Shown: one piece after another, positions 13,188-42,592 of the stretch
How the letters are laid out: each line of letters opens with the position of its first letter
Position numbering within the stretch: position 1 is the first letter of the stretch
From: Psychrobacillus sp. INOP01
GTDB lineage: Bacteria; Bacillota; Bacilli; Bacillales_A; Planococcaceae
Length of the DNA: 64,000 bases
Reading direction: 5' to 3'
NCBI RefSeq assembly: GCF_018140925.1
Contig: NZ_CP073315.1
Location: forward strand, 4,030,001 to 4,094,000
The notes under the pieces: model-generated
Told to the model about the DNA's origin: nothing
What the model saw: the letters and a program-made list of their open reading frames with translations, nothing else
The model's database searches: none
Program-made: the position numbers and the translations under genes

Positions 13188-13201
13188 AAGGGAACTCCCT
13201 A
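13188..13201. promoter_or_regulatory. NreC-type inverted repeat upstream of ric
   Basis: AAGGG-AACT-CCCTA matches 9 of 10 arm positions of TAGGG-N4-CCCTA, the palindrome reported for NreC in staphylococci. The same kind of box occurs before narG and narK in this window. It lies 65 bases before the ric start. Confidence 0.55.
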
Positions 13202-13239: not shown

Positions 13240-13265
13240 GACATTTAAAGAAGGGATTGAAGAAA

Positions 13266-13964
13266 ATGACTTTATTATCCGTAGAAACAAATGTTTCAGA
13301 AATTGTAAAAGAAATACCACAAACTGGTGATTTGTTTAGAAAGCTTCGAATAGATTTTTGTTGCGGGGGAAAGGTGCCACTTAGAACTGCAGCGATAAAT
13401 CAACAGTTAGACCCAGAAGAGGTACTAGAAAAAGTGAAAGGTATCCAATCAAAACAAACAGAATATCAACAAACGCTACCAACTTCTTTAGATGAGAAGG
13501 CGTTGATCGAACATATACAAACGAAGCATCATGCTTATTTACGTGAGGAATTACCTTCTTTGACACCTTATATAACAAAAGTATCAAAAGTACATGGCGA
13601 AAATCATCCACATCTCATCAGAGTTAAAGAGATTTTCACTGTTTTAAAAAGAGAATTAATAGACCATACCGATGATGAAGACAATGTTGTATTCCCATTA
13701 ATAAAGGAATTTATAGCGAATCTAACAGAAGAGCATGTAGAGAATTTAAAACCACATGTACTAGAATTAGAAGAAGAACATGAAAATGCTGGTAATCTTC
13801 TTAAAGAGCTACGAGAGATAACTAATAATTTCACACCTCCAGAAAGTGCTTGCGGAACATTCAGATTAGTATATCAACGACTTGAGCAGCTTGAAAAAGA
13901 CACATTTGAACATATTCATTTAGAGAATAATATATTATTTGAAAATGTGAGAAAAGCAATCTAA
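13266..13964 (+). CDS. ric: Iron-sulfur cluster repair di-iron protein (RIC/ScdA/YtfE)
   Basis: A 232-residue protein that restores Fe-S clusters after nitrosative or oxidative damage. The N-terminal ScdA_N (DUF542) domain shows the diagnostic FCCGGK motif (about residues 30-35). The C-terminal hemerythrin-like domain carries the expected His/Glu ligands: HHAYLREE, HTDDEDNVVFP, LEEEHENAG, HIHLENNILFE. The ATG at 13266 is chosen over an upstream TTG because AAGAAGGGA lies 10 bases before it. Its place beside the nar island and the NreC-type box fit a role against nitric oxide formed in nitrate respiration. Called scdA in staphylococci. Confidence 0.93.
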   Translation: MTLLSVETNVSEIVKEIPQTGDLFRKLRIDFCCGGKVPLRTAAINQQLDPEEVLEKVKGIQSKQTEYQQTLPTSLDEKALIEHIQTKHHAYLREELPSLTPYITKVSKVHGENHPHLIRVKEIFTVLKRELIDHTDDEDNVVFPLIKEFIANLTEEHVENLKPHVLELEEEHENAGNLLKELREITNNFTPPESACGTFRLVYQRLEQLEKDTFEHIHLENNILFENVRKAI

Positions 13965-16111: not shown

Positions 16112-16125
16112 TAGGGAAATCCCAG
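16112..16125. promoter_or_regulatory. NreC-type box 1 upstream of narG
   Basis: TAGGG-AAAT-CCCAG, 8 of 10 arm matches to TAGGG-N4-CCCTA. It begins 21 bp (two helical turns) before box 2. A further CCCTA half-site lies at 16093. Confidence 0.6.
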
Positions 16126-16132
16126 TAGTGAT

Positions 16133-16146
16133 TAGGACTTTCCCTA
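16133..16146. promoter_or_regulatory. NreC-type box 2 upstream of narG
   Basis: TAGGA-CTTT-CCCTA, 9 of 10 arm matches to TAGGG-N4-CCCTA. It lies about 36 bp before a possible -10 (TATAAG at 16182), with no good -35, as expected for an activator-dependent promoter. Confidence 0.6.
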
Positions 16147-16249: not shown

Positions 16250-19200
16250 ATGAAACGTAAATTTGGATTGAAGTATTTTAAGCCTACAGAAAAATATTCA
16301 GGAAGCTGGTCAATTCTTGAGCAAAAAAACCGAGACTGGGAAAATATGTACCGTGAACGTTGGTCTCACGACAAAGTAGTTCGTACGACGCACGGAGTTA
16401 ACTGTACTGGATCATGTAGTTGGAAAGTATTTGTGAAAAACGGAATTATTACATGGGAAAATCAGCAAATAGATTATCCTTCATGTGGTCCTGAAATGCC
16501 AGAGTTTGAACCTAGGGGATGCCCTCGTGGAGCTTCATTCTCCTGGTATGAATATAGCCCGTTAAGAGTGAAATACCCTTATATGCGAGGACGACTATGG
16601 AGACTTTGGAAATCAGCTTTACATGAACACCAAAATCCAGTCGATGCATGGGCAAGTATTGTAGAAGATCCTGAGAAATCATTTACTTATAAACGTGCTA
16701 GAGGTAAAGGTGGACATGTTCGAGTTACGTGGCAAGATGCGATGGAATTGATATGTGCACAATTGATTTATACAATTCGTACGTATGGTCCTGATAGAAT
16801 AGCTGGATTTACACCAATACCAGCAATGTCAATGATTAGCTATGCAGCTGGTTCGAGATTCATCAGCTTACTTGGCGGTGAAATGTTAAGTTTCTACGAT
16901 TGGTATGCTGATTTACCACCTGCCTCTCCGCAAATCTGGGGAGAACAAACAGATGTACCGGAATCATCTGATTGGTATAATTCAGGCTATTTAATTATGT
17001 GGGGTTCAAATGTACCGCTAACTCGTACACCTGATGCCCATTTCATGACAGAGGTTCGTTATAAAGGAACGAAAGTTGTATCGGTTGCTCCTGACCATGC
17101 AGAAAACGTGAAATTTGCGGATAACTGGCTAGCTCCACATCCAGGAACGGATGCTGCTGTTGCTCAAGCAATGACCCACGTTATTTTAGATGAGTTTTAT
17201 GTACAACGAAAAGAAGAAATGTTTATTAACTATGCAAAACAATATACAGATATGCCGTTTTTAATCTTATTGGATGAACATGAAGGAATCCACAAAGCTG
17301 GACGATTCTTACGCGCAAGTGATTTTGGAGATACTACGGAGAATGCTGAGTGGAAGCCAGTAATTATTGATGAAATTACAGCTAAAATAATCGTTCCAAA
17401 TGGAACAATGGGTCAACGCTGGGAAGAAGATAAAAACTGGAATTTGATTTTAGAAAATGAAGATGGTACTAAAATTGATCCTGCTATGAGTGTTGAAAAT
17501 TTTGAAGCAAGTCAAACAGAAATAGTCTTTCCTTTCTTTGATAATGTTTCAAATGGAACATTTAATAGGCATATACCTTCTAAAAAAGTTACGTTGGCAG
17601 ATGGCACTACTCGTTTAGTGGTGACTGTATATGATTTAATGTTAAGTCAGTATGGTATTAATCGTGGTGAAAGTGAATTTAATGCAAAAGGGTATGATGA
17701 TGCAGATTCGTTTTACACACCAGCTTGGCAGGAAAAAGTAACTGGTGTTAAATCCTCAGTAGTTGTACAAGTGGCTAGAGAATTTGCACAAAATGCTATT
17801 GATACAGAAGGTAGATCGATGATTATTATGGGGGCTGGTATTAACCATTGGTTCAATAGTGATACAATCTATCGTTCTATTTTAAACTTAGTTATTTTGA
17901 CAGCTTCCCAAGGTGTTAACGGCGGTGGATGGGCACATTATGTTGGCCAAGAAAAAGTTCGCCCGATTGAAGGGTGGAGTACAATTGCGTTTGCCAAAGA
18001 TTGGCAGGCACAACCGCGTCTACAAAATGCAACATCCTTCTTCTATTTTGCTACCGATCAGTGGAAATATGAAGAAATGGGTAATGATTCATTAAAATCT
18101 CCTCTAGCTGGGGATCTGAAGTACCAACATCCTGCAGATTATAATGTTTTAGCTGCACGTCTTGGTTGGTTACCATCATATCCACAATTCAATAAAAACA
18201 GTTTACTTTTCGCAGAAGAAGCAGCTGCCAAAGGACAAACAACAAATGAAGAAATTATTAAAATTGCATATGATCAAGTCGTTTCAGGGGAAGTGAAAGC
18301 TGCAATCGAAGATCCAGATTCACCAGAAAACTTCCCAAAATCACTATTTGTGTGGAGATCAAACTTAATTTCAAGTTCTGCCAAAGGTCAAGAATATTTT
18401 ATGAAGCATTTACTAGGTGCAAGTGATGGATTATTAGCGACACCAAATGAAGATGAAAAACCGGAAGAAATCAAGTGGAGAGAGGATGTAGAAGGTAAAT
18501 TAGACCTTCTAGTGTCAATCGATTTTAGAATGACAACTACTCCATTATATTCAGACATTGTATTACCAGCTGCAACTTGGTATGAAAAAACGGATATTTC
18601 ATCTACCGATATGCATCCATTCGTTCATCCGTTCAATCCAGCGGTAGATCCATTATGGGAATCGCGTTCCGATTGGGATGTATACCGTTCATTAGCCGAA
18701 ACATTTTCAAAAATGGCAGAGGTGAATCTACCTGGAGTCTATAAAGATGTAGTTACATCTCCACTAGCTCATGATTCGAAAAGTGAAATTTCTCAACCAA
18801 TGGGATTAGTGAAGGATTGGAAAAAGGGCGAAGTGGAACCGATCATTGGTAAAACAATGCCAAACTTTACAGTCGTGGAAAGAGATTATACAAAAGTTTA
18901 TGATAAGTATGTTTCCCTCGGACCTCTAACTGAAAAAGGAAAGATTGGAGCACATGGTGTGAGCTTCTCTGTTTCCGAAGAGTATGAAGATATGAAAAAA
19001 ATAAATGGAGCCCACTTTGATGACACGATAAAAAATGGTCTTCCAATGATTCACTCAGCAAGACAAGCAGTAAACGCTGTACTTCACTTATCTTCAGCAA
19101 CAAATGGTAAAGTATCGCAAAAAGCCTTCGAATCAGCAGAAAAAGATACTGGTGTTCAGCTGAAGGATATTTCTGCAGACCGTGCAGCAGAAAAAATTAC

Positions 19201-19924
19201 GTTCCAAAATATTACCGTTCAACCAAGGGAAGTAATTCCAACTCCAGTGTTTAGTGGTTCGAACAAATTAGGGCGAAGATACTCACCATTTACAACAAAT
19301 ATTGAACGACTTGTTCCATTTAGAACACTAACAGGCCGTCAACATTTTTATATTGATCATGAGATATTCTTACAATACGGAGAATCGTTACCAGTTTACA
19401 AACCAACATTGCCACCTATGGTATTTGGTACAAAGGATAAACCTATTGTTGGTGGGAAAGATGCATTAGTTCTACGTTACTTAACGCCACATGGAAAATG
19501 GAATATCCATAGTACTTATCAGGATAATCTGCATATGCTCACATTATTTAGAGGTGGACCAGTTGTTTGGATTAATAATGATGATGCAGCGGAGCATGAC
19601 ATTGAGGATAACGCTTGGTTAGAAGTATATAACCGAAATGGAGTAGTTACAGCTAGAGCTGTTGTTAGTCATCGTATGCCAAAAGGAACTATGTTCATGT
19701 ACCATGCACAGGATAAGCATATTAACGTTCCTGGTTCTGAAATTACAGAAGAACGTGGTGGAAGTCATAATGCACCTACAAAAATTCATGTAAAACCAAC
19801 GCAAATGGTCGGAGGTTACGCACAACTAAGCTATGGATTTAATTATTATGGTCCGATAGGAAACCAAAGGGATGGGTACGTAGCTGTACGTAAGATGAAG
19901 GAGGTAAATTGGCTTGAAGATTAA
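16250..19924 (+). CDS. narG: Respiratory nitrate reductase alpha subunit
   Basis: A 1224-residue catalytic subunit that reduces nitrate to nitrite on the cytoplasmic face of the membrane with Mo-bisMGD. The N-terminal cluster FS0 ligands are visible: His48, Cys52, Cys56 and Cys91 (THGVNCTGSCSW; RGCPRG). Asp221 in YADLPPASPQIWGEQTD is the molybdenum ligand. No Tat signal, as is usual for NarG. AAGGAAGGGTGAT precedes the ATG. It leads narGHJI; two NreC-type boxes lie upstream. Full length, with the expected C-terminal molydopterin-dinucleotide-binding domain (TPHGKWNIHSTYQ). Confidence 0.99.
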   Translation: MKRKFGLKYFKPTEKYSGSWSILEQKNRDWENMYRERWSHDKVVRTTHGVNCTGSCSWKVFVKNGIITWENQQIDYPSCGPEMPEFEPRGCPRGASFSWYEYSPLRVKYPYMRGRLWRLWKSALHEHQNPVDAWASIVEDPEKSFTYKRARGKGGHVRVTWQDAMELICAQLIYTIRTYGPDRIAGFTPIPAMSMISYAAGSRFISLLGGEMLSFYDWYADLPPASPQIWGEQTDVPESSDWYNSGYLIMWGSNVPLTRTPDAHFMTEVRYKGTKVVSVAPDHAENVKFADNWLAPHPGTDAAVAQAMTHVILDEFYVQRKEEMFINYAKQYTDMPFLILLDEHEGIHKAGRFLRASDFGDTTENAEWKPVIIDEITAKIIVPNGTMGQRWEEDKNWNLILENEDGTKIDPAMSVENFEASQTEIVFPFFDNVSNGTFNRHIPSKKVTLADGTTRLVVTVYDLMLSQYGINRGESEFNAKGYDDADSFYTPAWQEKVTGVKSSVVVQVAREFAQNAIDTEGRSMIIMGAGINHWFNSDTIYRSILNLVILTASQGVNGGGWAHYVGQEKVRPIEGWSTIAFAKDWQAQPRLQNATSFFYFATDQWKYEEMGNDSLKSPLAGDLKYQHPADYNVLAARLGWLPSYPQFNKNSLLFAEEAAAKGQTTNEEIIKIAYDQVVSGEVKAAIEDPDSPENFPKSLFVWRSNLISSSAKGQEYFMKHLLGASDGLLATPNEDEKPEEIKWREDVEGKLDLLVSIDFRMTTTPLYSDIVLPAATWYEKTDISSTDMHPFVHPFNPAVDPLWESRSDWDVYRSLAETFSKMAEVNLPGVYKDVVTSPLAHDSKSEISQPMGLVKDWKKGEVEPIIGKTMPNFTVVERDYTKVYDKYVSLGPLTEKGKIGAHGVSFSVSEEYEDMKKINGAHFDDTIKNGLPMIHSARQAVNAVLHLSSATNGKVSQKAFESAEKDTGVQLKDISADRAAEKITFQNITVQPREVIPTPVFSGSNKLGRRYSPFTTNIERLVPFRTLTGRQHFYIDHEIFLQYGESLPVYKPTLPPMVFGTKDKPIVGGKDALVLRYLTPHGKWNIHSTYQDNLHMLTLFRGGPVVWINNDDAAEHDIEDNAWLEVYNRNGVVTARAVVSHRMPKGTMFMYHAQDKHINVPGSEITEERGGSHNAPTKIHVKPTQMVGGYAQLSYGFNYYGPIGNQRDGYVAVRKMKEVNWLED

Positions 19925-21458
19925 AGCGCAAATTGCAATGGTGATGAACCTAGACAAATGTATTGGGTGCCATACTTGTAGTGTTACATGTAAAAGTACT
20001 TGGACAAATCGTGAGGGTGCCGAATACATGTGGTTTAATAATGTAGAAACTAAACCAGGTATTGGATATCCGAAACGTTGGGAAGACCAAGAAGTATACA
20101 AGGGTGGATGGCAAATGCGAAATGGAAAGTTGGAACTGAAATCGGGTTCCAAGCTTTCTAAAATAGCTTTAGGGAAGATTTTTTATAATCCCGATATGCC
20201 GGAGATGAAAGATTACTATGAACCATGGACATATGACTATGAAAAACTGACTAATTCACCAGAAGTGAAACATTCACCTGTTGCTCGTCCAAAATCAGTA
20301 GTTACTGGAGAATATATGGACTTGGAATGGGGACCAAACTGGGAGGATGATTTGGCTGGAGCCCATATTACCGGGCCAACTGATCCAAATATCCAAAAAA
20401 TTGAGGAAGAAATAAAATTCAATTTTGAACAGTCATTTATGATGTATCTACCAAGACTCTGTGAACACTGTTTAAATCCAAGTTGTGTGGCATCTTGCCC
20501 ATCTGGAGCTATGTATAAACGTGAAGAAGATGGTATCGTTCTAGTTGACCAAGAAGCATGTCGTGGATGGCGCTATTGTATGACTGGATGTCCGTACAAA
20601 AAAGTATATTTCAACTGGAAAACAAATAAAGCAGAGAAATGTACATTCTGTTATCCACGAATTGAATCTGGACTTCCGACTGTTTGTTCCGAAACATGCA
20701 CAGGTCGTATTCGTTATTTAGGAGTACTTTTATATGATGCAGATCGTGTACTGGAAGTAGCTTCAACTCCAGATGAAAAAGATTTGTACAAAGCACAGTG
20801 TGGAATTTTCTTAAATCCAAATGATCCGGAAGTCATTGAGCAAGCAAGAAAAGATGGAATTGCAGAAGAGTGGATTGAGGGTGCACAAAATTCACCTGTT
20901 TACAAACTCGCAATAGAGTACCAGCTTGCATTCCCATTGCATCCGGAATATAGAACATTGCCAATGGTATGGTATGTTCCGCCTTTAAGCCCTATTATGA
21001 ACTATTTCGAAGGGAAGGATTCTATTAAAAATCCTGATATGATTTTCCCTGCAATTGAAGAGATGCGTACGCCAATTCAATATTTAGCAAATATGCTAAC
21101 TGCCGGAGATGCTCAAGCAGTAAAAGGCGCTCTTCAACGAATGGCAATGATGCGCTCCTATATGCGTGCTATGTCTTCTGGTAAAGAGTTTGATGAAAGT
21201 CGTTTGGAACGTGTCGGTTTAACAGCTCATCAAACACAGCAAATGTATAGATTATTGGCAATTGCTAAATACGAGGATCGTTTTGTCGTTCCAACATCTC
21301 ATCGAGAGGGATATATGGACCCTTACCGTGCACAAGGCTCTATGGGCTACGATATGGGCTGTGACGGATGCGGACCAGCATCTCCAAATCCAACACCAAC
21401 TAAAACGGGTAAGGAAATTTATGAAGAGAATTTCTATGGGGGTATTTGGCGTGATTGA
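19914..21458 (+). CDS. narH: Respiratory nitrate reductase beta subunit
   Basis: A 514-residue electron-transfer subunit that carries four Fe-S clusters from NarI haem to NarG. Cysteine groups: C16-C19-C22-C26 (CIGCHTCSVTC), CEHCLNPSCVASCP, CRGWRYCMTGCP (the Trp marks the [3Fe-4S] cluster) and CTFCYPRIESGLPTVC. The start is TTG at 19914 with GGAGGTAAATT upstream, overlapping the end of narG by 11 bases. It lies in the cytoplasm, bound to NarG and NarI. Complete. Confidence 0.98.
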   Translation: MKIKAQIAMVMNLDKCIGCHTCSVTCKSTWTNREGAEYMWFNNVETKPGIGYPKRWEDQEVYKGGWQMRNGKLELKSGSKLSKIALGKIFYNPDMPEMKDYYEPWTYDYEKLTNSPEVKHSPVARPKSVVTGEYMDLEWGPNWEDDLAGAHITGPTDPNIQKIEEEIKFNFEQSFMMYLPRLCEHCLNPSCVASCPSGAMYKREEDGIVLVDQEACRGWRYCMTGCPYKKVYFNWKTNKAEKCTFCYPRIESGLPTVCSETCTGRIRYLGVLLYDADRVLEVASTPDEKDLYKAQCGIFLNPNDPEVIEQARKDGIAEEWIEGAQNSPVYKLAIEYQLAFPLHPEYRTLPMVWYVPPLSPIMNYFEGKDSIKNPDMIFPAIEEMRTPIQYLANMLTAGDAQAVKGALQRMAMMRSYMRAMSSGKEFDESRLERVGLTAHQTQQMYRLLAIAKYEDRFVVPTSHREGYMDPYRAQGSMGYDMGCDGCGPASPNPTPTKTGKEIYEENFYGGIWRD

Positions 21459-22026
21459 TTTAGAAAAGCTATATAAACATAAATCAGCTTTCGGCTTTTT
21501 TGCCCAACAGCTAACTTATCCAGAAAAACTAACCTTTCATCCAACTGCCTTAGGAGAGTCATTTTCACCTGAGGACCCAGCTTACGAGTTAGTTAAAGAA
21601 TACTGGGATGAAATTCATACGTATAGTTTAGATGATATACAGGAACTATATGTACAAACATTTGATTTTCAAAAAAATGCAACCTTATACATGACTTATT
21701 TTAAGTTTGAGGATGCAAAAGAAAGAGGTCAAATGCTTGCAAAGTTAAAAGTGATGTATGAAATGTTTGGTTTAGATATGCCGGCAGAGGAACTTTCTGA
21801 TTATCTGCCACTTATCTGTGAATTTTTATACGCAGCAGAATGGTTAGGCGATCCAAGAGCAAAAGATAGTTTTAATATACTATTCGCTGTACTTGAAGAT
21901 GGGACATATCATTTGATTGAAGCATTGGAAAAATTTAATAGCCCATATCTCCCACTAGTTAGAGGATTACGAGAAACCTTTAAAGCATGTATAGAAAGGG
22001 AGGCTGTAAATCATGAACATGATTGA
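21451..22026 (+). CDS. narJ: Nitrate reductase assembly chaperone
   Basis: A 191-residue cytosolic chaperone (TorD/DmsD/NarJ family, all-helical) needed to insert the Mo cofactor into NarG before membrane attachment. Motifs: AFGFFAQQLTYPEKLTFHP, LYVQTFDFQ, LYMTYFKFEDAKERG, LPLICEFLY. The start is taken as GTG at 21451 (VIDLEKLY), 8 bases after GGGGG and overlapping narH by 8 bases; ATG at 21436 (MGVFG) is the alternative. Longer upstream extensions only read narH in another frame. Confidence 0.9.
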   Translation: MIDLEKLYKHKSAFGFFAQQLTYPEKLTFHPTALGESFSPEDPAYELVKEYWDEIHTYSLDDIQELYVQTFDFQKNATLYMTYFKFEDAKERGQMLAKLKVMYEMFGLDMPAEELSDYLPLICEFLYAAEWLGDPRAKDSFNILFAVLEDGTYHLIEALEKFNSPYLPLVRGLRETFKACIEREAVNHEHD

Positions 22027-22699
22027 TCAGTTTTTATGGGTTATATTTCCTTATATTTGTATAGCAGTTTTTATTATTGGTCATATTTTTCGATATAAAA
22101 CAGACCAGTTTAGCTGGACTGCGAAATCGAGTGAATTTATAGAGAAAAAACAATTAATGATCGGAAGCTTACTTTTCCATATTGGTATTATTCCAGTAAT
22201 AATGGGGCATGTATCTGGGTTAGCTATTCCGAAATCATGGCTTCAAGCAGTTGGCGTAAATGATCATTTATACCATATAGGAGCGATATACATTGGCGGA
22301 TTCTTTGGTTTCGTGACATTAGCAGGAATGATAATTTTAACATCTCGCCGATTCACGAAGTCCACAGTTCGGAAATTGAGTAGTGCTTCAGATTTAATAG
22401 TAAATGTGATATTATTATTTATCGTATTTATGGGGATGTATGCAACGCTTGTCACAAATGCAGTTCAACCTGATTTTGACTATAGAACCTCCATTTCCGT
22501 ATGGTTCAGAAACTTATTTATCTTGCAGCCAGATGCTTCATATATGTTAAATGTTCCAATGTCATTTAAAATCCACGTAGTAACAGGATTTTTAATATTT
22601 GCATTATGGCCATTTACTAGATTAGTTCACGTATGGAGTGTACCATTAAACTACGTAGGTAGAAGCTACATCTTATATAGAAAGAATCGTTCAGAATAA
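22013..22699 (+). CDS. narI: Respiratory nitrate reductase gamma subunit (cytochrome b)
   Basis: A 228-residue membrane subunit with five transmembrane helices that takes electrons from menaquinol and binds two haems b. Candidate haem-ligand histidines lie in IIGHIFRY, LFHIGIIPVIMGHVSG and FKIHVVTGFL...LVHVWSVP. The ATG overlaps narJ by 14 bases and has GGGAGG upstream. It anchors NarGH to the membrane. A hairpin follows, but nreA begins 48 bases later on the same strand, so some read-through is likely. Confidence 0.97.
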   Translation: MNMIDQFLWVIFPYICIAVFIIGHIFRYKTDQFSWTAKSSEFIEKKQLMIGSLLFHIGIIPVIMGHVSGLAIPKSWLQAVGVNDHLYHIGAIYIGGFFGFVTLAGMIILTSRRFTKSTVRKLSSASDLIVNVILLFIVFMGMYATLVTNAVQPDFDYRTSISVWFRNLFILQPDASYMLNVPMSFKIHVVTGFLIFALWPFTRLVHVWSVPLNYVGRSYILYRKNRSE

Positions 22700-22747: not shown

Positions 22748-23206
22748 ATGAATAATGATCTTGATTTTCAAGAAGTGATAACTGCTATTAAAGACAAGTA
22801 TGAAGTAGATTTAGTGACATTAGCATTTATTCAACCAGCGCAATTGGAATATGTGCTGACATGGCAGTTTGCTATTGGAAATATAAACAATCGACTGAAA
22901 AGAATTGTTCTACAATCCGGTAAAGGGGTTGCAGGTCAAGTTTTTAAGTCTGGAAAACCTATGCTTGTCCGAAATGTCCTCACTGAATTTCCTTCGAAAG
23001 ATTTATTTAATTACCCAATAATTGTTTCAGAAAAGATTAAAAGTTTTTGTGCTCTGCCACTTTATAAAAAAAATAAAGTTCAAGGTGTAATATTATTAGG
23101 GTATAGAGAAGAGAATAAAATGACAAATGAGTTATTTGAACGAATAATTTATAATATTCATAAGGATTTTCCAAAATATTACGGTAAGGAGATGGCTAAG
23201 AATTGA
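22748..23206 (+). CDS. nreA: NreA nitrate-sensing GAF-domain protein
   Basis: A 152-residue single GAF-domain protein. In Staphylococcus NreA binds nitrate and controls the kinase NreB; position (first of nreABC, right after narI) and size match. Visible GAF features: a hydrophobic core, QSGKGVAGQVFKSGKPMLV, and SFCALPLYKKNKVQGVILL. AAGGGG precedes the ATG. It overlaps nreB by 4 bases (TTGA). Cytosolic. Nitrate binding is inferred from the orthologue. Confidence 0.9.
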   Translation: MNNDLDFQEVITAIKDKYEVDLVTLAFIQPAQLEYVLTWQFAIGNINNRLKRIVLQSGKGVAGQVFKSGKPMLVRNVLTEFPSKDLFNYPIIVSEKIKSFCALPLYKKNKVQGVILLGYREENKMTNELFERIIYNIHKDFPKYYGKEMAKN

Positions 23207-24258
23207 CAAATAATTTGCATTCAGATTTAGTTGATAGCTTAATAGGAATGTACGAAAACAGTTCTGAAGGCTTCTTCTTTTTTAATAAAGACAATAAATT
23301 ATTACATTTAAATCCTATTGCGAAAGAAATTTTAGATACTGATGCGATAAATGCAATGTTAGAAGGTCAAGAAAGGTCTCTTTGCCAAACTTGTAAGGGG
23401 TATACGAATACAACAGAGTTAGTTTCCTGTGAAAATTGCTATTTCACCAATCCAGAACAAGATTTCAGTTCCTTTCAGGTATATTTAGATACAAAAGATA
23501 AAGGGGTTCTTCCCTATGTAGCAAGTTTTCATACTATTGATAGTGAAAAAGGAACAAAAGTACTTATATTAAGAAATTTAACCAAGTTACTTGAAACAAG
23601 AGAATTATTATTTAAAAATACAACGATTAAACAAATAATAAAAGCACAAGAGGACGAGCGCAAAAGGATTTCTCGAGAATTACATGATAGTGTAGCACAG
23701 GAAATATTAAGTTCATTAGTAGATTTAAGAGTTATGAAATATTTGAAAAGTCCTGAGGACGTTTCACAGAAGGTTCAACATATAGAAGCATCCTTAACTA
23801 GACTGCTAGATGAAATTAGGAATTTGTCTGTAGAATTAAGACCTTCCTCATTAGATGATTTAGGAATAGAAGCAGCTCTAAGATCACACTTTAAGTGGAT
23901 TGAAAAAAACTATGGTCTAATTGTTCATTATACTTCTGAAATCAAAGGGAAACGTTTTCTTAGTGAAATAGAAACGGTTGTCTATCGAATATGCCAGGAA
24001 TCCATTTTAAACGCACTAAAATATGCAGATGTAGACGAGGTCATGGTCGAACTGTATGAGAAAGATGATAATTTAATGCTTAGAATAGTAGATGAGGGTA
24101 TTGGCTTTGATACTACAAAAAGAGTGATAAAAGGTACAGGTTTAGGGTTGTTTGGTATGAAGGAAAGGGCAGAACTTGTAGGTGGTAAATTATCTATTAT
24201 GTCTTCAAAGGATAAGGGCACTGAAGTTCTTCTATATATTCCACTAAAGGAGCGTTAA
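23203..24258 (+). CDS. nreB: NreB oxygen-sensing histidine kinase
   Basis: A 351-residue soluble kinase. The N-terminal PAS domain carries four cysteines C61-x2-C64 and C76-x2-C79 (CQTCK...CENC) with the spacing of S. carnosus NreB, where they bind an oxygen-labile [4Fe-4S] cluster. The HisKA_3 dimerisation domain has the phospho-acceptor His161 ([12 protein letters not shown]), followed by a HATPase domain ([20 protein letters not shown] N box; [19 protein letters not shown]). No membrane segment. Start is TTG with GGAGATGG upstream. It phosphorylates NreC under anaerobiosis. Confidence 0.95.
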
Positions 24259-24262
24259 ATGG

Positions 24263-24910
24263 ATGAAAATTGTTATTGCAGATGACCATGCAGTTGTACG
24301 AAGTGGGTTTTCGATGATATTAAACTATCAAGAAGATATGGAAGTTGTAGCGACTGCGGCCGACGGAATAGAAGCACATTTGATGGTTGCTAAGCATCAA
24401 CCAGATATACTTCTCCTTGACTTAAGTATGCCACCTGGAGAGAGTGGGTTAATAGCAACTGGTAAAATTAGTGAAGATTTTCCGAACACAAAAATACTTG
24501 TTTTAACAATGTACGACGATCAAGAGTATATGTTCCATGTGTTGAAAAGTGGTGCTTCTGGATACATATTAAAAAATGCACCAGATGAGGAACTTTTGAG
24601 TGCCATACGTATGGTTTATAAAGGTGGAACCTATATACACCCCAAAATGGCAACTTCTCTCGTAAAAGAATTCATAAAGAAAGATCAAAATATTATAGAC
24701 GACGATCCATTTAGTGTTCTTTCCAAAAGAGAAATAGAGATTTTACCGTTAGTTGCAAAAGGGTATGGCAATAAAGATATTGCAGCAAAACTGTTTATAT
24801 CTGTAAAAACCGTAGAAGCACATAAAGCAAAAATAATGGAAAAACTAAATTTAAAAAGTCGTCCAGAGATAGTTGAGTATGCGTTGAAAAAGAAATTATT
24901 AGAATTTTAA
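24263..24910 (+). CDS. nreC: NreC response regulator (LuxR/NarL family)
   Basis: A 215-residue response regulator with an N-terminal receiver domain (phospho-acceptor Asp53 in [12 protein letters not shown]; acidic pocket ADDH) and a C-terminal LuxR-type helix-turn-helix ([39 protein letters not shown]). AAAGGAGCG lies before the ATG, 4 bases after nreB. In staphylococci NreC activates the nar, nir and narT promoters at GC-rich TAGGG-N4-CCCTA palindromes; such boxes lie upstream of narG, narK and ric here. Confidence 0.95.
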
Positions 24911-24928
24911 AAAGTGAGGTCTTTAATA

Positions 24929-25453
24929 ATGGTTAATACTAATTTCCAAAGTCCCGTTCCCGCTATGAGAATTTTAGAAAACGAACACCAATATTTAATG
25001 CACTTGATGAATGAATGGCATACTATCGTTCTAAACTTTGAAAATGATATTTACGAGGAAATAGAAGCTCGTTCAGAGTTTAAGAGTTTGCGAAAGTTGT
25101 TAATAGATTTTTTAGAGCCTCTTAAAAATCATACAGATAAAGAAGAAAAGTTCTTTTTTCCATTATTAGGACATTATATCGGTACAGAGCAAGGTCCTAT
25201 TGTCACTATTGAAGCTGAGCATGAAGAAATTGATGCCTATATCGGTCACTTTTTACATCATACTCGGACAGGTGTGGATCAGTTGAGTCTAGATGATATG
25301 AAACAGATAGCAAAAGATGCAGGCGAAGCTTTTGAAGTGTTGATGGTTCATTTTGTAAAAGAAGAATCTGTATTATTTCCGATGACGGATAAAGTGATGA
25401 AAGCAGTAGATCAGGATAAGTTATTGGAACAACTGAATACGTTAATTGTGTAA
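24929..25453 (+). CDS. Hemerythrin HHE-domain protein
   Basis: A 174-residue four-helix protein with hemerythrin-type ligands: ENEHQYLMHLMNEW, HTDKEEKFFFP, EAEHEEIDAYI and MVHFVKEESVLFP. Such proteins bind a di-iron centre and react with oxygen or nitric oxide. The start is the ATG at 24929, 8 bases after GTGAGGT; the in-frame GTG at 24914 is part of that ribosome site. It is 18 bases after nreC, so it belongs to the nre transcript and may help oxygen or NO sensing, which is inference. A terminator follows. Confidence 0.88.
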   Translation: MVNTNFQSPVPAMRILENEHQYLMHLMNEWHTIVLNFENDIYEEIEARSEFKSLRKLLIDFLEPLKNHTDKEEKFFFPLLGHYIGTEQGPIVTIEAEHEEIDAYIGHFLHHTRTGVDQLSLDDMKQIAKDAGEAFEVLMVHFVKEESVLFPMTDKVMKAVDQDKLLEQLNTLIV

Positions 25454-25488
25454 AATAACTCATTTCACTCTATGGGTTATTTTTTTCT
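25454..25488 (+). terminator. Terminator of the nreABC-hemerythrin unit
   Basis: AATAACTCAT and ATGGGTTATT pair (one G-U) around an 8-base loop, followed by a run of T. Confidence 0.85.
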
Positions 25489-25534
25489 ATTTAATATATT
25501 AAATGGATTATCGTGCTTCGAATCCGGTGTTCAA

Positions 25535-25850
25535 GGTACTTTAAAGAATTAAAACGATATCGCTGATTTCCTCTTCAGGTGGACGCGTTCCGCAGGGTGA
25601 GCGATGAACCATCACCGACGCTCCGTCTTCGCCTGTGATGGTTCATCTGTCTCACTCATCCTACTGGAGACGCCACCTTCTACTACAATCATTATAGGGA
25701 GTAGTACTCAGGTAATAAGATTTAGCATAGACAGTCACTAAGGTAATAGAATTTGTTTAAGTTAATGTAGTAATAATAACATCCTGTAATTGCTATGTTA
25801 CAGGATAAAAGTATAAAAAATGCTCTGCAATAAGTGTTAATAGCATTTTC
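25535..25850 (+). repeat. Dispersed palindromic repeat, module A, copy 2
   Basis: The head TACTTTAAAGAATTAAAAC and GCTGATTTCC lead into a large palindrome: outer arms GGTGG/CCACC (copy 1 has GGCGG/CCGCC) and a perfect inner pair GATGAACCATCAC/GTGATGGTTCATC. The tail contains GGGAGTAGTACT, GTTTAAGTTAATGTAG and GGATAAAAGTATAAA, as in copy 1. No gene is credible here. Confidence 0.8.
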
Positions 25851-26037
25851 ATGTTACTAAATTAAGGATGAAGAAGACAGTAGATATATTTTTATAATAG
25901 TGAAGATCTAGAGGAAGAGTAAGTGTTTACTCAATAAAGAAGGAGGGAGCGCCCGAAATAGTATCTTCGGGCGCTTATTCTATGAGTAGGAAGGTATTTT
26001 TTCTCTAGTTATCCAAATGCACTTACCTGTTTCTAAA

Positions 26038-26176
26038 AGTTGTAGGAGGGCGACGAACAGACGACCAGCATCTCCAAAAAAACAACCGGTAATAGGGTAT
26101 AACAACAAGTCTGTTCAAACCACTTCGAAAATGATAGAAACAGGTTTTGACCTTAAAGGACCGGGCGTCTTTTTGG
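26038..26176 (+). repeat. Dispersed repeat, module B, copy 2
   Basis: It contains AGTTGTAGGAGG, CCAGCATCTCC, AACAAGTCTGTTCAAA, GATAGAAACAGG and GACCGGGCGTCTTTTTGG, all shared in order with copies at 15940, 54940 and (inverted) 63598. An open frame of 79 codons runs through it but looks like no protein. Confidence 0.75.
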
Positions 26177-26194
26177 TTGGTTTTTCTTATTATT

Positions 26195-26208
26195 TAGGGA
26201 ATACCCTT
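26195..26208. promoter_or_regulatory. NreC-type box 1 upstream of narK
   Basis: TAGGG-AATA-CCCTT, 9 of 10 arm matches to TAGGG-N4-CCCTA, 108 bases before the narK start. Confidence 0.6.
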
Positions 26209-26216
26209 GGCTGTAA

Positions 26217-26230
26217 AGGGGAGTCCCCTA
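26217..26230. promoter_or_regulatory. NreC-type box 2 upstream of narK
   Basis: AGGGG-AGTC-CCCTA, with a perfect AGGGG/CCCCT dyad, 22 bp after the start of box 1. The pair repeats the spacing seen before narG (21 bp). Confidence 0.55.
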
Positions 26231-26315
26231 TTAGAAACTATTTAAAATTTAGTTAAACTAATAGTAGGGAATCAATACGTGAATCATTCAATACCAAATA
26301 GAAAAGGTGATATGA

Positions 26316-27830
26316 ATGATAAAGAAAGTCCAATTGCCGTTACAGACGATGAACTTAGTTTTAGGATTTATGATCTGGGTAATCATTTCTTCTTTACTTC
26401 CATTTATTAAAGAAGATATTGATATACCTGCAGACAAAATAGCTATTTTAACTGCTATACCTGTAGTATTAGGGTCAATATTGCGAATTCCACTTGGCTA
26501 TTATGCGAATGTAATAGGTGCAAGACTCGTATTTCTAATTAGCTTTGTATTATTAATGTTCCCCGTATTTTATATCAGTGAAGCCTCTAGTTATATAGAT
26601 TTAATGATTGGGGGATTATTTTTAGGAGTTGGGGGAGCGGTTTTTTCTGTAGGTGTTACATCATTACCAAAATATTATCCTAAAGAAAAGCATGGGTTTG
26701 TGAATGGTATATACGGTGCCGGTAATATTGGTACTGCGATATCAACATTTGCAGCTCCAATGATTGCAACTCAAATAGGTTGGTCTTTAACGATAAAATT
26801 ATATTTAGTATTACTATTGATATTTATCGTTATTAATATCTTTTTAGGTGATAAACACGAAGTAAAAGTAAAAACACCAATTATTGAACAGATTAAAGGA
26901 GTTTGGAAAAATGATAAACTATGGTTTTTCTCATTATTCTATTTCATAACATTTGGCTCGTTTGTAGCGTTTACTGTTTATCTACCAAACTTTTTAGTAA
27001 GTAACTTCGAATTAGATAAAGTCGATGCTGGGTTAAGAACTGCTGGATTTATAGCTGTTGCAACAGTTTTTAGACCAGTTGGTGGATGGTTGGGAGATAA
27101 ATTTCAACCGCTATTCCTTTTGATGGGTGTATTTTCGGTCTATACAATTGCTGCAATATTATTAGCTTTTTCACCTTCAATAATGCTATATACGATTGGA
27201 TGTATAGTAATTGGTATTAGTGCAGGAATAGGAAATGGTGTAATTTTCAAGCTGGTACCATTCTATTTCAACAAACAAGCAGGTATTGCTAACGGTATTG
27301 TTTCTATGATGGGTGGTCTAGGAGGCTTTTTCCCACCACTCTTATTAGCTTCTATATTCTCGATAACTGGACAGTATTCAATTGGATTTATGCTCCTATC
27401 TTCTGTATCATTGGCAAGCTTGGTTTTAGTAGTATTCATGTACTATCAAGATAGATTAAAGCTAGCACAGGAAGTATTTAAATCAACTGGCCAAGGAATT
27501 ATGGTAACAAATACAGCGGGTACAATAGTTACAGTAAACCCGTCATTCACACAACTGACAGGATTTAGTGAAGAGGAAGCTATAGGGCAAACTCCAAGAA
27601 TTTTAAAATCTAAACGTCAGGAAAAAGCATTTTACGATGAAATGTGGGGAAGTATTCAAAAAAATGGAATGTGGCAAGGTGAAATTTGGAATCGTAGAAA
27701 AAATGGAGAAGAGTACTTGGAATGGTTGAATATTAGTGCAGTAAAAGATGAAACAGGCGAAGATGTCAGATATGTTGGAACCTTCACAGATATAACTGCA
27801 CACCGGACCGAAGAGGGCAACCAATCGTAA
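26316..27830 (+). CDS. narK: NarK-type nitrate/nitrite transporter fused to a C-terminal PAS domain
   Basis: A 504-residue protein. Residues 1-376 are a 12-helix major-facilitator transporter of the NarK/NarT nitrate porter group, with the nitrate-signature stretches GAGNIGTAISTFAAP (134-148) and GGLGGFFPP (334-342). Residues 384-495 are a PAS plus PAC domain (GIMVTNTAGTIVTVNPSF; TGFSEEEAIGQ; GMWQGEIWNRRKNGE; VRYVGTFTDIT) facing the cytoplasm. The frame is unbroken from helix 12 into PAS. Typical NarK proteins end near helix 12, so about 115 residues are extra. AAAAGGTGATATGA precedes the ATG; two NreC-type boxes lie upstream. PAS may gate transport or report nitrate/redox state; this is inference. 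Confidence 0.95.
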   Translation: MIKKVQLPLQTMNLVLGFMIWVIISSLLPFIKEDIDIPADKIAILTAIPVVLGSILRIPLGYYANVIGARLVFLISFVLLMFPVFYISEASSYIDLMIGGLFLGVGGAVFSVGVTSLPKYYPKEKHGFVNGIYGAGNIGTAISTFAAPMIATQIGWSLTIKLYLVLLLIFIVINIFLGDKHEVKVKTPIIEQIKGVWKNDKLWFFSLFYFITFGSFVAFTVYLPNFLVSNFELDKVDAGLRTAGFIAVATVFRPVGGWLGDKFQPLFLLMGVFSVYTIAAILLAFSPSIMLYTIGCIVIGISAGIGNGVIFKLVPFYFNKQAGIANGIVSMMGGLGGFFPPLLLASIFSITGQYSIGFMLLSSVSLASLVLVVFMYYQDRLKLAQEVFKSTGQGIMVTNTAGTIVTVNPSFTQLTGFSEEEAIGQTPRILKSKRQEKAFYDEMWGSIQKNGMWQGEIWNRRKNGEEYLEWLNISAVKDETGEDVRYVGTFTDITAHRTEEGNQS

Positions 27831-42420: not shown

Positions 42421-42592
42421 ATAAAAGCCTCTCTTCCATTAGAAAGAGAGGCGCAAAAGTACATTTGTCCTCTCTTATCTATCAAAACAAAATGTTTTGC
42501 AGGATTTAGCACCTTTCCACATACATTTAATATGCGGATGGTTGCCGAGCTTCATCGGGCCAGTCCCTCAGCTACTCTTGATAAGAGATATC
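42421..42592 (-). promoter_or_regulatory. SAM-I (S-box) riboswitch with terminator
   Basis: On the minus strand the aptamer (about 42590 to 42472) shows CTCTTATCAAGAG, GCTGAGGGACTGGCCC, GATGAAGCTCGGCAACC, GGTGCTAAATCCTGC and a closing GATAAGAG, the conserved S-box core. The expression platform follows: GCCTCTCTT/AAGAGAGGC stem (42428-42452) and TTTTAT. With SAM bound, the terminator forms and the metQ transcript stops; when SAM is scarce, the run to metQNI and beyond is made. Confidence 0.97.

Follow-up and report, generated by a model that had tools for sequence, protein, structure and literature searches.

The window analysed here is a stretch of 64,000 nucleotides from Psychrobacillus sp. 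INOP01 (contig NZ_CP073315.1, positions 4,030,001 to 4,094,000). It contains a nar-nre locus with the gene order narGHJI, nreA, nreB, nreC, a haemerythrin-domain gene and narK-PAS, followed by presumed molybdenum-cofactor genes (Table 1). The subject of this study is narK-PAS, in which a NarK-type nitrate porter is continued by a C-terminal PAS domain. The source genome (4.30 Mb, one contig) holds a single full copy of this gene.

Table 1. Features of narK-PAS and of its locus, in window coordinates.
Feature	Coordinates	Strand	Remarks
narG	16250..19924	+	From gene order and sequence; order conserved
narH, narJ, narI	19914..22699	+	From gene order and sequence; ORF starts unrefined
nreA (GAF nitrate sensor)	22748..23206	+	NF038250, 129.3 bits, below the cut-off of 175
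nreB kinase (HisKA_3, HATPase_c)	23203..24258	+	N-terminal four-Cys motif, read from sequence
nreC-type response regulator	24263..24910	+	
Haemerythrin-domain protein	24914..25453	+	
NreC-like palindrome AGGGAATACCCT	26196..26207	+	120 bp before the narK ATG
Second NreC-like palindrome, one mismatch	26217..26229	+	21 bp downstream of the first, 99 bp before narK-PAS
narK-PAS	26316..27830	+	504 codons, 504 aa; NarK-type nitrate porter and C-terminal PAS
Transporter part (MFS), residues 1-376	26316..27443	+	
Arg57	26484..26486	+	phmmer alignment with E. coli NarK
Arg253	27072..27074	+	Second conserved arginine, aligned to NarK
Linker, residues 377-393	27444..27494	+	Constant length
PAS domain, residues 394-495	27495..27800	+	No output domain after it
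Trp444	27645..27647	+	In the F-alpha helix; position of the published Trp that determines binding of flavin adenine dinucleotide (FAD)
Asn459	27690..27692	+	Position of the flavin-bonding Asn

narK-PAS is a single open reading frame (ORF) with an ATG start and zero internal stops. The initial annotation had described an unbroken frame leading from transporter helix 12 into a complete PAS domain at the C-terminal end, and this is confirmed. Pfam recognizes MFS_1 at residues 15-339 and PAS_9 at residues 393-495, each with a score exceeding its cut-off (63.7 against 27 for PAS_9). The NCBIfam PAS S-box model TIGR00229 is also passed, with 62.6 bits for a cut-off of 22.9. The best NCBIfam transporter model is NarK (TIGR00886), yet its score of 205.5 bits is below the curated cut-off of 311.7. 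As in NarK/NNP porters, the MFS fold is closest to NarK and both substrate arginines, Arg57 and Arg253, are present. Counted along the phmmer alignment, Arg57 corresponds to E. coli NarK Arg89, a residue with a role towards the substrate, and Arg253 is the counterpart of E. coli Arg305. The two conserved NarK arginines are treated in passages of PMC5217062. In the structural model, the helix of transmembrane segment 12 (TM12) is unbroken through the linker up to residue 390. The match to the NCBIfam DibA model starts at residue 378, so that the junction may lie where TM12 ends. Because the full-model structure search (VIA-align) returned transporter folds only, the PAS domain was folded and searched separately.

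The fusion was found in 136 distinct sequences, including that of the window. They are 494-518 residues long and each ends shortly past the PAS domain. The initial annotation had named a frameshift as a possible source of the fusion; a frameshift or an assembly artefact is ruled out by congeners carrying the same fusion at 97% identity and by the 136 distinct sequences. Full-length fused matches occur in 3/19 genomes of the genus, the source genome included, and in 72/250 genomes of the family (hand count of rows). For the class, with a sample of 398 genomes, the fused matches listed cover at least 11 family codes, all within this one class. The best 80 of at least 520 confirmed related loci are, by title, all from Bacilli (Planococcus, Sporosarcina, Paenibacillus, Cytobacillus, Peribacillus, Halobacillus, Shouchella and others), and in each of them the match spans almost the entire protein; these 80 retained loci give no measure of absence outside Bacilli. 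The closest named relative among them is Psychrobacillus psychrodurans (97% identity, locus L100). Genome sampling by E-value search covered the phylum of the source genome. Of 398 genomes sampled across the phylum, 8 match at E ≤ 1e-60, namely the source genome and 7 of its own class, and none outside the class; one of the 7 (G338) has weak matches only, at 32-39% identity. Among plasmids, the same threshold gives one record, from Niallia taxi. No chain of the type NarK-PAS-kinase was noticed among the matches listed, and no dedicated search for one was made. A 1224-residue open frame at G592 contains a NarK ORF of 400 residues. Two related loci are irregular, with narG in two frames in one (L086:1548-5233) and, in the other (L089:609-10303), moaB, moeB and part of narK repeated; each may be real or an assembly fault.

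Arg57, Arg253, Tyr440, Trp444, Trp453 and Asn459 are invariant in all 136 fused proteins. Pro427 is found in 135 and Phe490 in 133 of them, and none has an insertion or deletion (indel) between residues 355 and 490. The PAS domain is under purifying selection, though freer than the transporter: the median ratio of nonsynonymous to synonymous substitution rates (omega) is 0.068 for the PAS domain and 0.039 for the transporter, over 115 related, non-independent pairs. The DIT exit motif is relaxed, with Thr494 in 92/136 and Ile493 in 110/136 sequences.

Its sequence, its fold and two residues published as determinants suggest that the PAS domain is of the flavin sort. The top match in the fold search is the FAD domain of NifL, tied with 3lyx, and many LOV domains come just behind. 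Among the sequence and fold matches shown, all titles that name a ligand or a class are those of flavin, LOV or redox-sensor proteins. Trp444 lies inside the F-alpha helix of the model (residues 437-450), and Trp444 and Asn459 align with a Trp and an Asn in both NifL and MmoS. By motif, they are equivalent to Trp70 and Asn85 of Aer. Passages of PMC10468136 describe the F-alpha Trp as the primary determinant of FAD binding and the Asn as present in the NifL and Aer clusters, and passages of PMC9668731 show roles for Asn85 and Trp70 of Aer. The F-alpha Trp and the flavin-bonding Asn of NifL-type FAD-PAS domains are both present in 136/136 sequences. Other classes were considered and set aside. 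No column between 383 and 499 has Cys as its commonest residue, as would be expected of a LOV domain or of an Fe-S PAS of the NreB four-Cys type, and none has His, as in the haem PAS of FixL, DosP and Aer2. The idea of a redox or ligand input, proposed by the initial annotation, holds up, the PAS domain being flavin-type in sequence, fold and two determinant residues; no support was found for nitrate sensing by this domain.

The PAS domain is no oddity of this locus. Mapped on a tree of NarK homologues, it is probably the ancestral state of a whole Bacilli NarK clade. In this transporter-only tree (69 rows; quick method, with support from the Shimodaira-Hasegawa-like approximate likelihood ratio test (SH-aLRT) only; long rows L074, L185 and L186), 51 fused and 7 PAS-less rows form one clade with a support of 100. 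The PAS-less rows are scattered within the fused clade and represent five lineages: the rows of family code f9, L099, L071, L075 and L076. The three f9 rows, taken for Staphylococcaceae partly from gene order, lie inside a branch supported at 99, on a long stem (0.91). Six state changes are required on the tree, at least four of them forced by the starred branches; such counts do not separate gain from loss. One old gain of the PAS domain followed by repeated loss is the likeliest history, favoured because the junction is constant and the PAS sequences are related. A search for PAS remnants beside the PAS-less L099, L071, L075, L076 and L077 gave none or weak matches only (E ≥ 0.3). The PAS-less narK of L099 (11616-12818; 401 residues, 78% identical) sits in an otherwise complete nreABC locus and probably reflects a recent clean loss.

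In trees of the PAS domain, the NarK PAS groups with the PAS of GGDEF-type proteins. Group labels in these trees were assigned from the locus of origin, and 5/106 rows, with PAS scores of 19.5-29.9 bits and all on branches of 4.45 to 10, were removed beforehand. The best tree does not unite the NarK PAS domains in a single clade (3 changes), and such a clade occurs in 0% of 200 bootstrap trees, but the approximately unbiased test does not reject it (p-AU 0.322). The nearest non-NarK PAS found (46% identity) is encoded in the source genome itself (L002), in a protein that is PAS-GGDEF-EAL by Pfam; L003 has the same composition and L004 is PAS-GGDEF without EAL. A GGDEF or GGDEF-EAL protein of the DibA type is the probable donor type, as judged from these groupings. 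The adjacent PAS-kinase was also considered as donor and is rejected as the likeliest one, since the NarK PAS groups with the GGDEF type instead. The PAS domains of neighbouring kinases keep the His and the Arg of Aer/MmoS, in 32/32 cases each.

Upstream regions were scanned with a consensus that we take to be that of NreC-like palindromes. Over the whole window such boxes are not enriched (10 versus 8.43 expected); only their placement upstream of narG and narK is telling. Like narK-PAS, narG has two palindromes, 137 and 116 bp ahead of it and 21 bp apart (16113-16145). With one mismatch allowed, a site is found within 250 bp upstream of 80/136 fused genes, versus 5.0% of base-shuffled upstream regions, and pairs of boxes spaced by 20-22 bp are found in 46/136. 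The genes with a site are 2/19 at loci with a sensorless kinase (described below), 0/11 at loci where no kinase was found and 78/106 of the rest, the latter being mainly Fe-S NreB loci together with short loci of unexamined kinase content. In nreABC loci, narK-PAS probably has its own NreC-controlled promoter. Given these boxes of its own, the PAS domain would act post-transcriptionally. An exact NreC-like palindrome is also found at 13189-13200, about 57 bp ahead of the start listed for a gene encoding a RIC/ScdA-type di-iron protein of Fe-S repair (13257-13964), which may be under the same NreC control.

Between the haemerythrin-domain gene and narK-PAS, about 860 bp (25454-26315) contain no ORF of at least 90 residues, and an Rfam scan gave no match in this interval. 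The corresponding gap is about 770 and 1030 bp in the congeners L081 and L080, respectively, and much shorter in L082 and L083. A haemerythrin-domain gene is frequent between nreC and narK across families, including the PAS-less L078, L079 and L099, and its product is possibly a further O2 or NO component. Elsewhere in the window, an S-adenosylmethionine (SAM) riboswitch is located at 42472-42587 on the minus strand (95.3 bits).

The tie to nreABC seen by the initial annotation stands for many relatives but is not general, the rest having other contexts. An NreB-like kinase with the Fe-S type motif is found within 4 kb of 71/109 distinct fused genes. Another 19 fused genes (18 loci) have, within the same distance, an NreB-like kinase that is reduced to its core and too short to include a sensor domain. 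Three have a distant kinase only, and 16 have no NreB-like kinase in the DNA examined, which is short for some (L102, L154). In 16/19 of these rows, narK-PAS is followed by the sensorless kinase at a distance of 2-193 bp. Pfam finds HisKA_3 and HATPase_c and nothing else in the two that were analysed (L143 and L084). The His, N and DxGxGF boxes are retained in all 18 aligned sensorless kinases, but 17/18 have a diverged G2 box, and their activity is therefore uncertain. At L143 and L070 the sensorless kinase is followed by an NreC-like regulator, an NreA-like protein and a two-PAS kinase, and the order is similar in most other named loci having sensorless kinases. These rows, headed by narK-PAS (L143:7974-13117, L070:6362-11424, L174 and others), are a possible second nitrate-respiration module of Bacilli. 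At L143 the row is preceded by a NasC-like molybdenum oxidoreductase, an Fe-S protein and a Rieske-like protein. In two genomes of genus g10, from the same family as the window, NreB is itself trimmed to the kinase core (L084:9739-10428 and L220:8120-8824); nreA was searched for at these two loci and not found, and narK-PAS is retained there. Near the PAS-less narK genes, an Fe-S type NreB is found in 3 cases and none in 4, and a sensorless kinase in 0/7; this comparison includes only 7 genes from lineages that are not independent.

We tentatively view narK-PAS as a respiratory porter of nitrate (or of nitrate and nitrite) to which an FAD-type PAS redox module is covalently joined. A porter gated by its PAS domain under redox control is a serious possibility, still short of a probable one. 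We infer FAD binding, a redox response, gating and the direction of gating as follows. FAD in the PAS domain would track the cytoplasmic or quinone-linked redox state. A redox change would travel via the helix shared by TM12 and the PAS entry and would bias the porter. In the simplest case, nitrate import would be switched off in an oxidised cell, where oxygen is available, and switched on in a reduced one. NreABC would probably set the amount of porter, and the PAS domain would trim its activity. According to passages of PMC3445494, respiratory nitrate uptake is generally halted by oxygen, by an unknown mechanism linked to redox state. A redox-class domain on a nitrate porter is a direct candidate to explain how, in this clade, nitrate uptake comes under redox control. 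Since the domain is attached to the porter, the question of oxygen or redox control could be tested by one deletion, with the PAS-less members of the clade (f9 rows, L099, L071, L075 and L076) as natural controls.

Several observations weigh against this view. The PAS-less NarK2 of M. tuberculosis is also redox-controlled, and its mutants, cysteine ones included, kept redox/oxygen control unchanged (passages of PMC3445494). The PAS domain is therefore not needed for such control and would be no universal answer. The residues of the Aer/MmoS sub-type are absent, Aer His53 and Arg115 being replaced, by motif, by Pro427 and Phe490. LOV domains score nearly equal in sequence and fold. Trp and Asn are also common in the GGDEF-type PAS domains compared (17/18 and 15/18, respectively), so that they mark a subfamily and do not prove a cofactor; they may have been inherited from the PAS donor. 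The constant length of the linker is weak evidence because the whole protein is nearly indel-free, only 2/136 rows differing, in the loop between TM6 and TM7. The PAS domain has a higher mean entropy than the transporter (1.21 versus 0.72) and fewer invariant columns (10/108 versus 104/376), and its omega is as high as 0.47 in one pair. Finally, the sensorless kinases near 19/109 fused genes fit a signalling role better.

In such a role, the PAS domain would be a sensor or docking module feeding a separate histidine kinase. The porter would inform a soluble kinase core (the sensorless NreB-like kinase where there is one, NreB here) of nitrate flux or of the redox state, and the kinase would drive an NreC-type regulator, as a CbrA-like system split in two. 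The closeness of the sensorless kinases to narK-PAS, their reduction to a kinase core with His, N and DxGxGF boxes, their absence beside the PAS-less genes and the retention of narK-PAS at L084 and L220, where NreB lacks its N-terminal sensor part, all favour this explanation. We nevertheless consider it somewhat unlikely. Against it stand the 16 fused genes with no NreB-like kinase in the DNA examined, some of it short, and the 71 that, like the one in the window, have an NreB with an Fe-S motif. The diverged G2 box also speaks against it, and the examined sensorless-kinase loci further encode an NreA-like protein and another kinase, with MmoS/Aer-like PAS domains, that could drive the core. 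Moreover, sensorless kinases arose in few lineages, and the PAS-less genes compared are just 7. Gating may be the common function of the PAS domain and kinase signalling a later use, and the two readings are compatible. That a flavin-gated porter explains the oxygen block of nitrate uptake and, in Cytobacillus-type loci, also provides an orphan kinase with the sensor half that it lacks is, as a whole, unlikely. If true, one family would display the passage from a regulated transporter to a split transceptor. The sensorless kinases beside some copies give a view of how a transporter might turn into a receptor.

The PAS domain could also be a structural adaptor that dimerises the porter, or docks it on NarGHI or another partner, and senses nothing. 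PAS domains commonly dimerise, and this one is terminal, lacks an output domain and has a relaxed DIT motif. However, mere docking does not demand invariant candidate FAD residues in the cavity, and three of the five PAS-less lineages (L076, the f9 rows and L099) adjoin nar genes, so that docking by PAS is unneeded there; an adaptor is quite unlikely. Direct sensing of nitrate or nitrite by the PAS domain would suit the nitrate context, in which staphylococcal NreA is a nitrate-binding GAF domain (passages of PMC8139620), and a functionless passenger would suit the PAS-less members, which show that the domain is dispensable in some lineages. Both are very improbable, the former in view of the flavin, LOV or redox-sensor titles of the matches that name a ligand or class, and the latter in view of the low omega and the invariant PAS columns over 136 sequences.

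Among known porters, E. coli NarK and NarU (MFS, NNP family; 4u4w, 4jre, 4iu8) have solved chains that align to model residues 1-381 at most, with 24% identity over the aligned part and no PAS in the aligned region. The f9 rows are closer, with a transporter 52-58% identical, and two of their loci (L078 and L079) share the order narGHJI-nreABC-HHE-narK. Their porter, which we assign to staphylococcal NarT, stops after helix 12, the PAS domain having probably been lost. For Bacillus azotoformans and B. bataviensis, PMC3475470 describes narK genes (1500 and 1503 bp) that are linked to narGHJI and terms them NarK2-type antiporters. Judged from their length, these genes are probably of the same kind as narK-PAS; a PAS domain is not named for them in the passages of that article examined. 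Likewise, no recognisable mention of a NarK-PAS fusion was found in the literature searched, which largely excludes subscription journals. The FAD-PAS domains of NifL and MmoS share the PAS fold, the F-alpha Trp and the Asn with narK-PAS, but they belong to regulatory or kinase proteins, whereas the PAS domain of narK-PAS terminates a transporter. The DibA-type GGDEF and GGDEF-EAL proteins differ in their output, which, from the domain names, is turnover of cyclic di-GMP (c-di-GMP). CbrA-type transceptors carry a transporter and a PAS domain on one chain, as narK-PAS does. However, CbrA is described as SLC5-STAC-PAS-kinase, whereas narK-PAS is MFS-PAS with no kinase on the chain. Both parts of narK-PAS are of known kinds and chains joining a transporter to a sensor exist, so that what seems new is the combination of NarK with PAS.
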